Part shown: positions 26,795-62,538 of the stretch, one piece after another
Position numbering within the stretch: the stretch's first letter is position 1
How the letters are laid out: each line of letters begins with the position of its first letter
Source of the DNA: an uncultured Pelagibacteraceae bacterium
Lineage (GTDB): Bacteria; Pseudomonadota; Alphaproteobacteria; Pelagibacterales; AG-422-B15
Length of the DNA: 64,000 nt
Reading direction: 5' to 3'
Assembly (NCBI GenBank): GCA_902554325.1
Contig: CACDOH010000003.1
Coordinates: forward strand, 62,001 to 126,000
Notes under the pieces: model-generated
The model's database searches: none
The model's input: only the letters and a program-made list of their open reading frames with translations
Told to the model about the DNA's origin: nothing
Made by a program: the position numbers and the translations under genes

Positions 26795-26821
26795 TAATCG
26801 TTCACGATAAACTCTAAAAAA

Positions 26822-26840
26822 AACCCGGCCTAGCCGGGTT
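26822..26840. terminator. Bidirectional rho-independent terminator between groEL and hisG
   Basis: aacccggc-cta-gccgggtt stem flanked by A-run on the left and T-run on the right. Confidence 0.92.
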
Positions 26841-26844
26841 TTTT

Positions 26845-27546
26845 TTATTCAAACTTATTAATAAAATTTTTGTAATTACTTTCTATTTCGTTATCCCACT
26901 CCGCAACTTTTGAAGAAAAAATATTTGCTGATGATTTCAGGATTATGCCATCATCAAGAACTCTTAAATTGTTAGCCCTTAGTGTTTCACCTGTTGATGT
27001 TATATCAGTGATAATTTCTGAAAAACCATTAAAAGGCGCGCTTTCAGTAGAGCCATCACTTTCAACAGTTCTATAATCAACAACTCCACATTTAGAAAAG
27101 AAATTATTTGTTAAATTCTTATATTTAGTTGCTACACGCAACCTTTTTGAATATTTATCTCTGTGATTATTGCTCACTTCTTCCAAATCAGCCATCGTCA
27201 TTACATCAATCCAGATATCCGGTACAGCAACAACCAGATCCGCTTTTCCAAAAGTTAACTCCAGATCCTTTGTTATTTTTGAATTAAAATTGAAAATTTT
27301 TTCTTGTATGAGGTCATCACCAGTTAAGCCTGCATGAATTGATCCCTCATCAAGTCTATTGGTAATTTCTTTGGCACTTAAAAAATATAGAACTGTATCT
27401 CTTAGTCCCTCTATTGTACCAATATAATCTCTATCATTTACAAGATTTTCAAAAGTAATATTTTTATCTAGAAATAGTTTCTCCATGTCTTTTCTTAATC
27501 TGCCTTTACTAGGTAATCCTATCCTTAATTTATTTTCAAATTTCAT
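26845..27546 (-). CDS. hisG: ATP phosphoribosyltransferase catalytic subunit (short form)
   Basis: RIGLPSKGRLRKDMEKLF, GLTGDDLIQE, RVATKYKNLTNNFF; 233 aa short form with adjacent hisZ. Confidence 0.93.
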   Translation of the reverse strand: MKFENKLRIGLPSKGRLRKDMEKLFLDKNITFENLVNDRDYIGTIEGLRDTVLYFLSAKEITNRLDEGSIHAGLTGDDLIQEKIFNFNSKITKDLELTFGKADLVVAVPDIWIDVMTMADLEEVSNNHRDKYSKRLRVATKYKNLTNNFFSKCGVVDYRTVESDGSTESAPFNGFSEIITDITSTGETLRANNLRVLDDGIILKSSANIFSSKVAEWDNEIESNYKNFINKFE

Positions 27547-27548
27547 GA

Positions 27549-28676
27549 CTATATAATTTTACTTAAATTATTATTATTTGTTGCAAACCCTATAGCTGAC
27601 AGATTGTTTCTGGACCCTAAAATATTAAGTAACTTATCGTATCTTCCACCAGTTATTATCTTTAAATTGCCTGATTGATCATAGATTTCGAACATAACAC
27701 CATCATAAAATTCAATTGAATGTCCAAAGTCATTGTTAAAATTAATTTTAGATATATCCATTTCAGATGAGACGGCGTTCTTGAATTCTTCAATGCCATC
27801 AATCTCTTTTTTAAAAAAATCAAGCTTTTGATCACTTACAAACTCTCTTAAAATATTCGGAAAAGTATCAAGAGAAGCGTTTAAACCTAAAAAATTTTTA
27901 ATCAGATTTACAATTTGTTTTCCATTACTTTCAGAGACGATGTTTTCACTTTTCTCCTGAAATCGTTTGACGATTTCTTCAACTGTCCTTGAGCCTGAAC
28001 CGGAATTGCTATTAGAATTAATTAGATCAGCCAAATTTCCACTTGAATTGGCATTCAAACCTAGTTTTTCATTGATAATTTCATCTTTTTTCAAAATGTC
28101 ATAACCGACACCTTGCCCTAATCGATTTAACAAACTATCAAAATATGTTCTTCTAAAAAAATGCCTGACAATTCTTTGTTTCCACCTGATCGGTAAATCT
28201 AAATAACTTATAAAACTATTAAAGAGGTTTAGACTGCCTATTTTAATTTGGTATTCATTAATATTTAATTTTTCTAGAATTTTGACTGCTGTTTTAAGCG
28301 CATATATATCTTTTTCATAAATAGTTTTTAGCTTTTTTTCTGTAAAAATAATTTCAACCCCTGATTGGTTTAATTCAATTGATGCGTCATTTATTCCATT
28401 GGTTGACCTAAATACGGGTCCACTGTAGCATAAATTAGCTTCATTTATTTTATCATCATTTTTAATAAAACTTTGACACGTAGGGATCGTCATATCTGGT
28501 CTCAGACATTTTTCCTTGCCTGAACCGTCTATAAAAGAATACATCTGACTTCTGATTTCTTCTCCCGATGTTTCATAAAAAATGTCAGAATCATGAACTA
28601 AAGGAAGCTCTACATATTGAAATCCTAACTCAATAAAATAATCTTTTAATCTAATATTTAATTCCTGTAGTGACAT
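27549..28676 (-). CDS. hisZ: ATP phosphoribosyltransferase regulatory subunit
   Basis: HisRS-like fold without anticodon domain (LRPDMTIPTCQSF, GGRYDKLLNILG); between hisS and hisG. Confidence 0.9.
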   Translation of the reverse strand: MSLQELNIRLKDYFIELGFQYVELPLVHDSDIFYETSGEEIRSQMYSFIDGSGKEKCLRPDMTIPTCQSFIKNDDKINEANLCYSGPVFRSTNGINDASIELNQSGVEIIFTEKKLKTIYEKDIYALKTAVKILEKLNINEYQIKIGSLNLFNSFISYLDLPIRWKQRIVRHFFRRTYFDSLLNRLGQGVGYDILKKDEIINEKLGLNANSSGNLADLINSNSNSGSGSRTVEEIVKRFQEKSENIVSESNGKQIVNLIKNFLGLNASLDTFPNILREFVSDQKLDFFKKEIDGIEEFKNAVSSEMDISKINFNNDFGHSIEFYDGVMFEIYDQSGNLKIITGGRYDKLLNILGSRNNLSAIGFATNNNNLSKII

Positions 28677-28679
28677 AGC

Positions 28680-30071
28680 TCAAATTTTTAGTATTTCCTT
28701 TAGAGTGCTTACTAAATCCTCTCTAATGACTTCTTTTTGACCTGCTTTAGTTTCTTTCCATTCTTCACGTCCAGTTATATTTTTTGAAATCTCACTTCCC
28801 TCTTTTAAATCTTTAAGTGATATTTTATTATTTTTAATTTCATCATCACCTGCAATTACAACTGCATCAGCTTGCTTGCGATCGCAATATTTAAGTTGCT
28901 TAGCTAAGTTTTTTGAGCCAAAAGAAATCTCGCAGGCCATGCCTGCATCTCTAATTTCAGATGCCATTCGAATATACTCAGATAAATTATTATCTCCTAA
29001 ATTTGCTACAATTACTAAAGGTCTCGATTTAGCTTTAATGAGATCCAACTGCTCTAGAGCGACAATAAGCCTGTCAACACCAACAGAAATGCCAGTAGCG
29101 GGAACGTCCTCTTTCCCAAATCTTGATATCAGTTTGTCATATCTTCCTCCTCCAGCCACTGATCCAAAAACTATAGTTTCACCTTTTGTATTTTTTACAT
29201 CAATTAATAGTTCAGCTTCAAAAATCATACCTGTATAGTAATCCAATCCTCGTACAATGGATGGATCAAATGAAATTGGATAATCTGCAAAATTCTTTAA
29301 ATAAGAGTTAAACTCATCAATATCATCACTCGTTTGCTTCTGGTTGTTCATAAAGTCTAAAATCATTGATGCTTGTTCATCATCAAGACCTACACCTTCC
29401 ATAAAATCACCAGATTTATCTTTCCTACCCTCACATAATAACTCTTTAACACCTTCATCACCTAGACGATCCTTTTTATCTACTGCTCTAAGAATTTTTG
29501 ACTCAACTTCTTTCGAAGCCTTTATTTTCTCAAAAAGACTTGTCCAAATTTTTCTATTTGAATATTTAATTTTAAATTGAGAGTCATTTAAACCAAGTCT
29601 TCTCAAAATATTTACAACCATGACGCATAATTCAGCATCGATTAGATTTGATTGAATTCCAATAACATCTGCATCAAATTGTAAGAATTCTCTGAATCTT
29701 CCAGGCCCTGGCTTTTCATTCCTCCATACTATTCCGGATTGATATCTTTTAAATGGCTTCACTAAATTTTGATAATTCTGTGCAACATATCGTGCTAAAG
29801 GAGCTGTTAGGTCATATCGTAATGATAGCCATTGACCATCTTCATCTTGTAACGAAAAAACTCCTCCACTCGGTCGATCTATATCAGGCAAAAACTTGCC
29901 CAGACTATCAGTGTATTCAATGGATGAAGTTTCTAATTCAACAAATCCAAATTTTTGACACTCTTCCTCTATTACCTCAGTAACTATTTTTCTGAGAGTC
30001 AGGAGTTGTTTCTCACTGTCTTTAAACCCTCTAGGTAAAATAGCCTTGGGTTTATTGTTATTCTTAGTCAT
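28680..30071 (-). CDS. hisS: histidyl-tRNA synthetase
   Basis: PRGFKD, LRYDLTAPLARYVAQN, GGGRYDKLISRFGKEDVPATGISVGVDRL, C-terminal anticodon domain. Confidence 0.96.
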   Translation of the reverse strand: MTKNNNKPKAILPRGFKDSEKQLLTLRKIVTEVIEEECQKFGFVELETSSIEYTDSLGKFLPDIDRPSGGVFSLQDEDGQWLSLRYDLTAPLARYVAQNYQNLVKPFKRYQSGIVWRNEKPGPGRFREFLQFDADVIGIQSNLIDAELCVMVVNILRRLGLNDSQFKIKYSNRKIWTSLFEKIKASKEVESKILRAVDKKDRLGDEGVKELLCEGRKDKSGDFMEGVGLDDEQASMILDFMNNQKQTSDDIDEFNSYLKNFADYPISFDPSIVRGLDYYTGMIFEAELLIDVKNTKGETIVFGSVAGGGRYDKLISRFGKEDVPATGISVGVDRLIVALEQLDLIKAKSRPLVIVANLGDNNLSEYIRMASEIRDAGMACEISFGSKNLAKQLKYCDRKQADAVVIAGDDEIKNNKISLKDLKEGSEISKNITGREEWKETKAGQKEVIREDLVSTLKEILKI

Positions 30072-30098
30072 ACGATTCCAATCGTTAGTACGATACTA
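30072..30098 (-). promoter_or_regulatory. Two adjoining palindromes at the hisS translation start
   Basis: acgattccaatcgt (30072-30085) and tagtacgatacta (30086-30098), directly abutting the hisS ATG. Confidence 0.55.
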
Positions 30099-30133
30099 CA
30101 AAGTTAGTTTATTTAATATAAAAAGGGGTTGTT

Positions 30134-30161
30134 GTTCGCTGACGCTTTTTGTTCAGCAAAC
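30134..30161 (-). promoter_or_regulatory. Leader hairpin just after the His leader-peptide stop codon
   Basis: Minus strand GTTTGCTGA-ACAAAAAGCG-TCAGCGAAC; 9 bp stem (one U-G). Confidence 0.6.
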
Positions 30162-30197
30162 TTAGATATGAATATGATGATGTGTATAAACAATCAT
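30162..30197 (-). CDS. His-rich leader peptide upstream of hisS (MIVYTHHHIHI*)
   Basis: Minus strand ATG ATT GTT TAT ACA CAT CAT CAT ATT CAT ATC TAA: four His codons in 11; directly followed by a stem-loop; upstream of hisS-hisZ-hisG. Confidence 0.75.
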   Translation of the reverse strand: MIVYTHHHIHI

Positions 30198-30285
30198 GAA
30201 CAGTGAAATGCCTTATTTATTCAAAAAAGTCAAATTTTTATAATTTTTATTATTAAGTGAAGCCGAAATACTCTATTTTTATTAA

Positions 30286-31485
30286 ATGATTACCACTGAA
30301 AACAGTAGAAAATTAACTGTTATTTATGCTGCGCTTGGCCATCTATTGATGCACATGTTTGCTGCATTTTACTTTGTAATTGTTCTTGCAATTGAAGATG
30401 AGTGGAAATTTTCATATGACGAGCTTTTAAATCTATGGTTTCTTGGGTCTCTCCTTGTTGGCATAGGATCTTTACCAGCCGGATGGATTAGTGATCGATG
30501 GAGCCGTTCAGGAATGATTGCAATTATGTTTTTAGGTCTAGGCATTAGTTCAGTTCTTTGTGGTCTGAGTGGGAATAAATTATCTCTTTTTATTAGTCTA
30601 TCCTTACTTGGCTTATTTTGCTCAATATATCACCCTGCTGGAATATCATGGATAGTTAATACATCAAAAGAAACAGGACGTGCACTTGGCTTCAATAATA
30701 TATTTGGGGGCGTAGGAATTGGATTGGGAGCTTTTTTTGCTGGTATTTTAATTGACCAAATTAATTGGCAAGCTGCGTTTATATTCCCCGGAATAATTTC
30801 TATTCTAACAGGCTTATGTCTCTCATATCATTTGAAATCAGGAAAAATTTCATTGACTAATATTAAATCAGAACAATTTCGAGATAATCCAGAAAAAAAT
30901 CAAATGCTAAAAATTGCGATTATAATGCTTGTAAGTATTACATGTTTGAGTTTTGTATATCAAATTCTTCAAACAAGTTTGCCTAAAGCAATTGATATCA
31001 GACTATCAAACAGCTTAAACCTCTCTACGTCTGAGATTGGATATATTGTAGCTGCTATTTATATTGTAAGTGGTTTAATGAACTACATAGGTGGTATTTT
31101 AACAGATAAATATTCTGAGAAAGTAATTTATGCTATTGGCATCATCGGACAAGGCGGACTTCTTTTATTCATTGTTAGTCTATCAAATTATTGGTTAATT
31201 GTTATCAGTCTCATGATTGTTGCTTTTAATTCAAGTATACTTCCAGCAGAAAATTTATTACTGGCTAAATTCTCGCCAGAAAAATATCAAAGTCTCGTAT
31301 ATGGTATAAAATTCATTGTTTCATTCTCCGTAGGGCCAATAGCCCTAATCCTAATTTCTAGAAGCTATGAAATAAGCGGTGAGTTTGGATTTCTTTATTT
31401 ACTTTTCGGATTTGTAATGATCCTGCTCTTTTTGATCGTACTCACTCTTCCCGTAAAAAAATCATTAGTTGGTACAGCTGGGTAG
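30286..31485 (+). CDS. MFS transporter
   Basis: Twelve hydrophobic segments; GWISDRWSRSGMI between TM2/3; stop codon lies inside the antisense tRNA-His gene. Confidence 0.88.
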   Translation: MITTENSRKLTVIYAALGHLLMHMFAAFYFVIVLAIEDEWKFSYDELLNLWFLGSLLVGIGSLPAGWISDRWSRSGMIAIMFLGLGISSVLCGLSGNKLSLFISLSLLGLFCSIYHPAGISWIVNTSKETGRALGFNNIFGGVGIGLGAFFAGILIDQINWQAAFIFPGIISILTGLCLSYHLKSGKISLTNIKSEQFRDNPEKNQMLKIAIIMLVSITCLSFVYQILQTSLPKAIDIRLSNSLNLSTSEIGYIVAAIYIVSGLMNYIGGILTDKYSEKVIYAIGIIGQGGLLLFIVSLSNYWLIVISLMIVAFNSSILPAENLLLAKFSPEKYQSLVYGIKFIVSFSVGPIALILISRSYEISGEFGFLYLLFGFVMILLFLIVLTLPVKKSLVGTAG

Positions 31486-31546
31486 ACTTGAACTACCGAC
31501 CTCCTGGTCCACAACCAGGCGCTCTAACCAACTGAGCTACAGCTGC
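31470..31546 (-). tRNA. tRNA-His (GTG)
   Basis: GCAGCTGTAGCTCAGTTGGTTAGAGCGCCTGGTTGTGGACCAGGAGGTCGGTAGTTCAAGTCTACCCAGCTGTACCA; full cloverleaf, anticodon GTG, encoded CCA. Confidence 0.95.
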
Positions 31547-31551
31547 ATAAG

Positions 31552-31627
31552 TGGTGGCTCGAGGTGGATTTGAACCACCGACACAAGGATTTTCAGTCCT
31601 TTGCTCTACCAACTGAGCTATCGAGCC
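31552..31627 (-). tRNA. tRNA-Phe (GAA)
   Basis: GGCTCGATAGCTCAGTTGGTAGAGCAAAGGACTGAAAATCCTTGTGTCGGTGGTTCAAATCCACCTCGAGCCACCA; anticodon GAA, encoded CCA. Confidence 0.96.
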
Positions 31628-60835: not shown

Positions 60836-62538
60836 AAAAAATTCCAAGACAATCTTATGCAGCTATGTATGGGCCCACAACAGGCGATAAAATAAGGTTA
60901 GCTGATACTGAACTTTTCGTAGAGGTTGAAAAAGACCTCACAGTCTACGGTGAGGAAGTCAAGTTTGGTGGTGGCAAAGTTATTCGCGATGGCATGGGGC
61001 AGTCTCAGGTTTCAAGAAGTGATGGAGCTGTAGACACAGTTATTACAAATGCTCTAATTCTAGATGTCACCGGGATATATAAAGCAGATATTGGACTAAA
61101 GAACGGAAATATTGATCATATTGGAAAAGCTGGTAACCCTGATACACAACCTGGTGTGGATATTATAATTGGCCCAGGAACTGAAGTTATTGCAGGTGAA
61201 GGTAAAATTGTAACAGCAGGTGGCTTTGACAGTCATATACATTTCATATGTCCTCAGCAAATTGATGAAGCCTTACATTCTGGCATTACTACGATGCTGG
61301 GTGGAGGTACTGGACCAGCACATGGAACATTAGCAACTACTTGCACACCAGGTCCATGGCACATCGGCAGAATGCTTCAATCATCTGATGCTTTCTCAAT
61401 GAATTTAGCTTATGCAGGCAAAGGAAATTCATCGTTGCCTTCTGGTTTAGAGGAACAAGTTCTTGGTGGAGCAGCTGCTCTTAAACTTCATGAGGACTGG
61501 GGCTCTACTCCTGGTGCAATTGATAATTGTTTAAATGTTGCTGATCAATTCGACGTTCAGGTCATGATACATACTGATACGCTCAATGAAAGTGGCTTTG
61601 TAGAAAATACAATTAATGCAATTAATAAAAGAACCATTCATACATTTCACACTGAAGGTGCAGGTGGTGGACACGCGCCTGATATAATAAAAATTTGTGG
61701 TGAACCCTATGTTTTGCCTTCTTCAACTAATCCAACACGACCATTTACCGTTAACACAGTTGAAGAGCATTTGGATATGCTGATGGTTTGCCATCACCTT
61801 GATAAATCAATACCTGAAGACGTAGCATTTGCCGAGAGTAGAATACGCAGAGAGACGATGGCCGCTGAAGACATATTGCACGATATGGGTGCTTTCTCAA
61901 TCATTGCATCTGACAGTCAAGCTATGGGACGCGTTGGTGAGGTTATTATTAGGACATGGCAAACTGCTCATAAAATGAAAGTGCAACGAGGAAGACTATC
62001 TGAAGAGCAAGGTGATAATGATAATATAAGAGTCAAACGATATATTGCAAAATATACAATAAATCCGTCAATTGCTCATGGAATTTCTTCCTATGTTGGC
62101 AGTCTTGAAAAAAATAAAAGAGCCGATATTGTTATTTGGGACCCAGCTTTTTTTGGTGTTAAGCCTGAGATTATAATAATGGGTGGAAGTATTGCCTGCG
62201 CTCAAATGGGCGATCCAAACGCATCGATTCCAACTCCCCAACCTGTGTACACGCGCCCAATGTTTGGAAGTTATGGAAGATCACTTGAAAATTCATCGGT
62301 AACTTTTGTCAGTAAGAGTTCACTAGAGGCGGGCAGCCTTAATCATCTCAATATACAAAAAAGTATGTTACCGGTAAGCAATACAAGGTCAATTTCAAAA
62401 AAAGATATGGTTTTAAATGATGTTTGCCCAACTATAGATGTAAATCCTGAAACATATGAGGTTAGAGCAAATGGAGAAATTATTACATGTGAACCTGCGG
62501 AAGAACTGCCAATGGCACAAAGATATTTTATGTATTGA
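60832..62538 (+). CDS. ureC: urease subunit alpha
   Basis: [46 protein letters not shown] (carbamylated Lys), [21 protein letters not shown]. Confidence 0.98.

Follow-up and report, generated by a model that had tools for sequence, protein, structure and literature searches.

A conserved histidine-codon leader and adjoining hairpin upstream of hisS-hisZ-hisG in SAR11 bacteria, a putative attenuator-like element lacking an intrinsic terminator

Few cells in the ocean are as abundant as SAR11 bacteria, whose set of transcription regulators is small. In the DNA analyzed here, a stretch of 64,000 nucleotides from a SAR11 bacterium of the AG-422-B15 group (Pelagibacterales), referred to as the window herein, an earlier note had proposed a His-codon leader peptide and a probable attenuator of the enterobacterial kind upstream of hisS-hisZ-hisG. 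The locus poses the question of how a leader-peptide attenuator could operate without an intrinsic terminator. Across the order, one short leader seems to link histidyl-tRNA synthetase with the committed step of histidine synthesis and, in the order's larger family, tRNA-His seemingly comes under the same leader as well.

The features of the locus are collected in Table 1. The identities of hisS, hisZ and hisG, the genes downstream of the leader, held by both similarity and position: hisS and hisG score above their cut-offs, and hisZ, whose best match falls below, keeps its place between the other two genes wherever longer loci were read.

Table 1. Features of the hisS leader region and neighboring genes (positions in the window)
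Feature	Position	Strand	Basis or remark
hisG, ATP phosphoribosyltransferase	26845..27546	-	TIGR00070, above NCBIfam cut-off
hisZ, ATP phosphoribosyltransferase regulatory subunit	27549..28676	-	best matches HisZ models, below curated cut-off
hisS, histidyl-tRNA synthetase	28680..30071	-	TIGR00442, 374.6 bits, above NCBIfam cut-off
Intrinsic terminator at operon end, CCCGGC..GCCGGG + T8	26815..26847	-	overlaps hisG stop codon
Imperfect inverted repeat TAGTA-TCG-TACTA	30086..30098	-	holds invariant AGTA; before hisS
Invariant ACCCC, fixed 4 nt past hairpin	30125..30129	-	invariant columns, f1 alignment A1
9-bp hairpin GTTTGCTGA / TCAGCGAAC, directly 3' of leader stop	30134..30161	-	pairing and covariation
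Leader ORF MIVYTHHHIHI*, four His codons, putatively leaderless	30162..30197	-	sequence and conservation in 44 f1 loci
Likely -10 element (GG)CATTTC, 17 nt from -35	30205..30210	-	position-specific GCAttTC conservation in f1; inferred
-35 element TTGACT of leader promoter	30228..30233	-	TTGAC in 44/44 f1 loci
MFS transporter gene	30286-31485	+	bounds leader region opposite hisS
tRNA-His gene	31470-31546	-	beside tRNA-Phe, beyond MFS gene

The minus-strand 11-residue peptide with four His codons was found as the note had described it, reading ATG ATT GTT TAT ACA CAT CAT CAT ATT CAT ATC TAA from a start codon at 30197-30195 to its end at 30162. The order falls into two families, f1, to which the window belongs, and f2, a large sister family that we take to be of the Pelagibacter type. 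The note had suggested aligning the regions upstream of hisS in relatives and had named loss of the His codons or of the hairpin as evidence against its reading. Upon alignment of these regions, both the His codons and the hairpin were retained in each of the 44 f1 loci whose hisS start is intact, and the stem was found to covary. Each of these loci carries the 11-aa ORF with two to four His codons, nearly always three or four and mostly four (for instance, MFKFKHHHYHI, MFIIKHHHLHI, MLIIKHHHSHI and MITLLHHHYHI). Fewer occur in L039 and L040, which read HHTAH, and in L002, L017, L020 and L044, each of which has lost one His. The His codons of f1 leaders also vary synonymously between CAT and CAC.

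The 9-bp stem-loop that the note had drawn is present in the window, and its nine pairs are all conserved. The arms, GTTTGCTGA (30161-30153) and TCAGCGAAC (30142-30134), enclose a 10-nt loop, and the stem occupies the very next base after the stop codon with zero spacer; the note was right about the adjacency and off, trivially, in placing the stem one base further on. We assessed covariation with 31 distinct f1 sequences, using 500 shuffles and slid versions of the stem as controls. Pairing across the nine positions is complete (100% of cells) compared to 94.2 ± 0.6 in the shuffles, none of which equaled the observed value (0/500). Similarly, the covariation score was 0.402 versus 0.279 in the shuffles (0/500) and at most 0.193 in the slid versions, and double changes were observed in 17 cells where 3.4 were expected. 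Three pairs show compensatory changes, a number that is unremarkable in itself (139/500 shuffles). Several pairs switch between Watson-Crick and G-U, and since G-U pairs favor RNA over a DNA palindrome, we rejected a DNA operator as the explanation of the stem. The folding stability of the whole leader is ordinary relative to shuffles (z = -0.45); only the local hairpin stands out, and it does so by its conservation.

Upstream of the leader, each of the 44 f1 loci has TTGAC at a distance of 35-36 nt from the ATG. As a genome-wide control we used the complete 1.2-Mb f2 genome G054 with its 953 short intergenic ATG ORFs, of which 5.7% have a TTG at this distance compared to 35 of the 41 f2 leaders. 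From this spacing between the -35 element and the ATG, transcription is predicted to start at the leader ATG, beside it or a few nucleotides before it, and the leader ORF probably begins at the first base of its transcript, i.e., it is leaderless.

When we examined the 41 f2 loci, we found a different His-rich leader (e.g., MIKIVKTLVLTHRHHFHAGCTLAI) followed by a hairpin in the same geometry as in f1. The order of elements is leader, tRNA-His(GTG) and hisS, then hisZ and hisG where longer loci were read. ARAGORN calls tRNA-His in 38 of the 41 loci, with divergent tRNA-like sequence in the remaining three (L072, L074 and L077). The f2 hairpin is short and GC-rich, varies in sequence while keeping its pairing, and begins at or close to the last His codon, which abuts the stem in most loci. 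In 27 of the 41 loci, despite their differing peptides, the stem follows the first clustered His codon at a distance of exactly 18 nt. A few f2 leaders (L073, L079 and L089) have only two His codons, which counts against the explanation that we favor below. In f1, tRNA-His, beside tRNA-Phe (31470-31627), is parted from hisS by the MFS gene and lies beyond the reach of the leader, which adjoins hisS, whereas in f2 tRNA-His lies between leader and hisS, implying that the leader goes with hisS in both families.

The leader is also exclusive in its location. Among the 953 short intergenic ORFs of G054, just one has at least four His within six codons, and it is the orthologous hisS leader. We judged a second His-rich ORF of that genome, MGGLQSHQDHSHIHAF (three His in six), to be spurious, as an unrelated gene lies downstream and it resembles coding sequence of the opposite strand. 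In the window's own genome, the degenerate leader pattern was found once. Outside the order, 21 sampled alphaproteobacterial loci with the same long HisS type yielded neither a convincing upstream His-run ORF (0/21) nor tRNA-His before hisS (0/21).

We then asked whether the hairpin has the makings of a terminator, a point on which the earlier note had voiced doubt. A TTTTT run (30124-30120) does follow the stem at a distance of 9 nt, as the note had said, with AACAACCCC in between. This run occurs only in some f1 lineages, others having CCCCTTATACC and CCCCCTATATAAATT, whereas the CCCC before it is conserved, and the doubt was well placed. No U-tract lies directly 3' of the stem in either family, as a Rho-independent terminator would have, and the f2 tails past the hairpin are mixed A/T with one to six T in eight. 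We rejected a canonical terminator at the leader hairpin on account of the conserved C-rich gap in f1 and these mixed tails in f2. The canonical T8 terminator at the end of hisG, which is conserved in the genus, indicates that the organism does employ the standard form. Further, the RNAalifold consensus for f1 contains a single hairpin, and we found no antiterminator partner or alternative pairing in it. That neither a terminator nor an alternative pairing was identified weighs against the explanation that we favor below. Two candidate pairings were also discarded: that of ACCCC with the hisS Shine-Dalgarno sequence amounts to 2-3 bp by inspection and is unconserved, and one between the His codons and the 5' arm (B:C) was seen by eye in one f2 leader and is unconserved in f1.

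To relate hairpin formation to the position of the ribosome, we used an occupancy model that places the front edge of the ribosome ∼13 nt downstream of the first A-site base. In f1, the hairpin has a mean modeled probability of 0.97 while the ribosome occupies the first His codon, falling to 0.53 on the last and to 0 on the stop codon. In f2, the mean is 0.92 at the first His codon, and the hairpin is unformed at the last His codon and at the stop. These modeled occupancies suggest a logic common to both families, in which the hairpin forms under a shortage of charged tRNA-His and is absent when the supply is ample.

The ORF, the hairpin, their geometry and their conservation can be read directly from the sequence. 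That the ORF encodes a His leader peptide that would sense charged tRNA-His is strongly supported by conservation across the order, covariation, promoter geometry and the exclusive location of the leader. We consider it likely that the whole constitutes a ribosome-sensing cis-regulatory leader for hisS-hisZ-hisG, acting through a leaderless ORF, ribosome stalling and a hairpin that raises expression. Under this explanation, transcription would begin at or beside the ATG of the leaderless 11-codon ORF. With charged tRNA-His plentiful, the ribosome would reach the stop codon and its front edge would cover the 5' arm, blocking the hairpin. With charged tRNA-His scarce, it would stall on the first His codons, 18-21 nt short of the hairpin, leaving the hairpin free to form ahead of it. 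The hairpin would in turn allow more transcription into hisS-hisZ-hisG, or into tRNA-His-hisS-hisZ-hisG in f2, a sign of control that we infer from the biology of the genes.

The effector is the least certain part of this explanation. We propose that, by default, Rho would end transcription within the G-poor spacer, which is not translated, and that the stalled ribosome together with the hairpin would counteract this. Rho was proposed since no U-tract terminator is present, and such an effector is possible given that Rho is encoded in 54 of the 58 genomes sampled in the order. The assembly to which the window belongs, 79% complete, yielded no Rho, probably due to incompleteness. The f2 spacer, which is A/T-rich rather than C-rich, weakens the proposal, and Rho specifically is our leading guess at somewhat short of an even chance. 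With a tRNA as the first gene in f2, the target of control would have to be transcription or RNA stability rather than the initiation of translation at the following gene. That these leaders form an order-wide SAR11 class of attenuators without an intrinsic terminator, in which a leaderless His-codon ORF and a single translation-sensitive hairpin control tRNA-His, its synthetase and the first histidine enzyme via Rho or polymerase pausing instead of a terminator/antiterminator switch, is a broader proposition on which we are evenly divided.

Several other explanations were weighed against this one. A chance ORF beside a chance hairpin would agree with a whole-leader folding energy no lower than that of shuffles; conservation across the order, the covariation and the G054 control already refute it, and we give it next to no weight. 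A classical attenuator of the enterobacterial type, in which this hairpin or an unseen one downstream is an intrinsic terminator with an antiterminator, would account for a His-codon leader with an adjoining hairpin and, in the window's genus, for TTTTT 9 nt beyond the stem. However, that T-run is not conserved and the invariant ACCCC occupies the place where a weak U:A hybrid is needed; the mixed f2 tails, the single consensus hairpin and the standard T8 terminator at the end of the same operon argue in the same direction. In the leader geometry, moreover, starvation is the condition in which the hairpin would form, whereas a terminator ahead of his genes should behave the other way round, and we regard this type of attenuator as quite unlikely. 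We hold it unlikely, too, that the hairpin stabilizes an RNA polymerase pause that synchronizes polymerase with the leader ribosome while final control lies elsewhere. The fixed hairpin-N4-ACCCC-Y spacing sets an RNA 3' end ∼10 nt from the stem, which is the known spacing of hairpin-stabilized pauses, but f2 shares neither this spacing nor the sequence, and a pause alone does not set expression.

The remaining alternatives turn on the region just upstream of hisS. The inverted repeat there, whose stem length varies among relatives, may be a second RNA hairpin or a weak internal promoter or -10 element. Were it a promoter, the leader could form an independent small transcript or peptide that has a function of its own, with hisS or tRNA-His transcribed from near the conserved TAGTAT element. 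AGTA(T) is invariant before hisS, and a similar motif, TAGTATAAA, precedes tRNA-His in many f2 loci. In the sequences that we inspected, however, no -35 TTG is correctly spaced from the AGTA(T) motif, whereas the leader promoter has one; the leader is confined to positions before hisS or tRNA-His-hisS, and the amino acid that its codons specify is that of the genes downstream. Such a transcript is in our estimation very unlikely. A leader that governs access to the hisS ribosome-binding site by translational attenuation would give a role to this second inverted repeat, 8-20 nt upstream of hisS in f1, and attenuators that sequester ribosome-binding sites do exist (PMC9413887). Against it, the leader hairpin and ACCCC show no conserved pairing with the hisS start region, and the f2 leader precedes a tRNA, which is not translated; we view this, too, as very unlikely.

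Our preferred reading, a ribosome-sensing leader, shares features with several known systems. Like the enterobacterial his leader (RF00514), it has a short His-run ORF before histidine genes with an adjoining RNA stem, and charged tRNA-His is presumably read through ribosome position. Unlike RF00514, it has no U-tract terminator and no antiterminator that we could find, its ORF is probably leaderless, and it precedes hisS-hisZ-hisG instead of the main his operon. In Rfam searches, His_leader RF00514 did not match the SAR11 leader at the gathering threshold or up to E = 10, and the T-box covariance model had no match upstream of hisS. A His-codon leader ORF and histidine-related genes downstream (hisS, hisZ and hisG), two hallmarks of amino-acid attenuators, are both present, and a third, dependence of hairpin formation on ribosome position, holds in the model only. 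The SAR11 leader is attenuator-like yet falls outside the classical his attenuator family, since the defining terminator was tested for and is absent. Of the earlier note's proposal, the sensing leader peptide stands on conservation and covariation; the attenuator of enterobacterial type is not supported, as neither a U-tract terminator nor an antiterminator pairing nor an Rfam His leader match was found.

Bacillus His leader peptides precede a hisS paralogue and hisZ (Naville and Gautheret 2010, PMC2965389), and the SAR11 leader adds a proteobacterial case. In both, a His-codon leader controls, or would control, hisS-family genes; the Bacillus study chose its elements by a Rho-independent terminator in a different phylum and reported no likeness to proteobacterial leaders (PMC2965389). 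Attenuators of Firmicutes his operons likewise have three to five consecutive His codons upstream of hairpins, whereas these are terminator and antiterminator hairpins and the controlled gene is not hisS (PMC9413887). The trpL leader peptide of Sinorhizobium meliloti, another alphaproteobacterium, is encoded by a transcript with its 5' end at the ATG, as predicted here, but it serves tryptophan, yields a terminated sRNA and has trpE(G) downstream (PMC7298713). Lastly, the hisS T-box of Firmicutes places hisS under the level of charged tRNA-His, as we propose for SAR11; the T-box RNA reads the tRNA directly, whereas in SAR11 the ribosome would read it via codons. Our search of the openly accessible literature found no description of a SAR11 hisS leader. 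A survey of structured RNAs in SAR11 mentions neither hisS nor a His leader, and its candidate table omits intergenic regions that hold tRNA genes (PMC2704228).

Some minor observations were made along the way. In most f2 loci, hisS starts ∼5 nt past the CCA of tRNA-His, so a processed mRNA would be nearly leaderless. Within one f2 genus (L070-L081 and L089), the tRNA-His sequences are very divergent, the tRNA-like sequences of L072, L074 and L077 keep a GTG anticodon-like loop and CCA, and HisS is also more divergent, with ∼44% identity to that of the window. In the window itself, the 3' end of the plus-strand MFS ORF overlaps the 3' end of the minus-strand tRNA-His gene by 16 bp (31470-31485). 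The terminator at the operon end is bidirectional and serves the convergent groEL and hisG, its A-run being the part that overlaps the hisG stop. An Rfam match to the Helicobacter 5' ureB antisense RNA (60982-61270, minus strand, 105.9 bits) probably reflects the underlying urease gene rather than a true sRNA.
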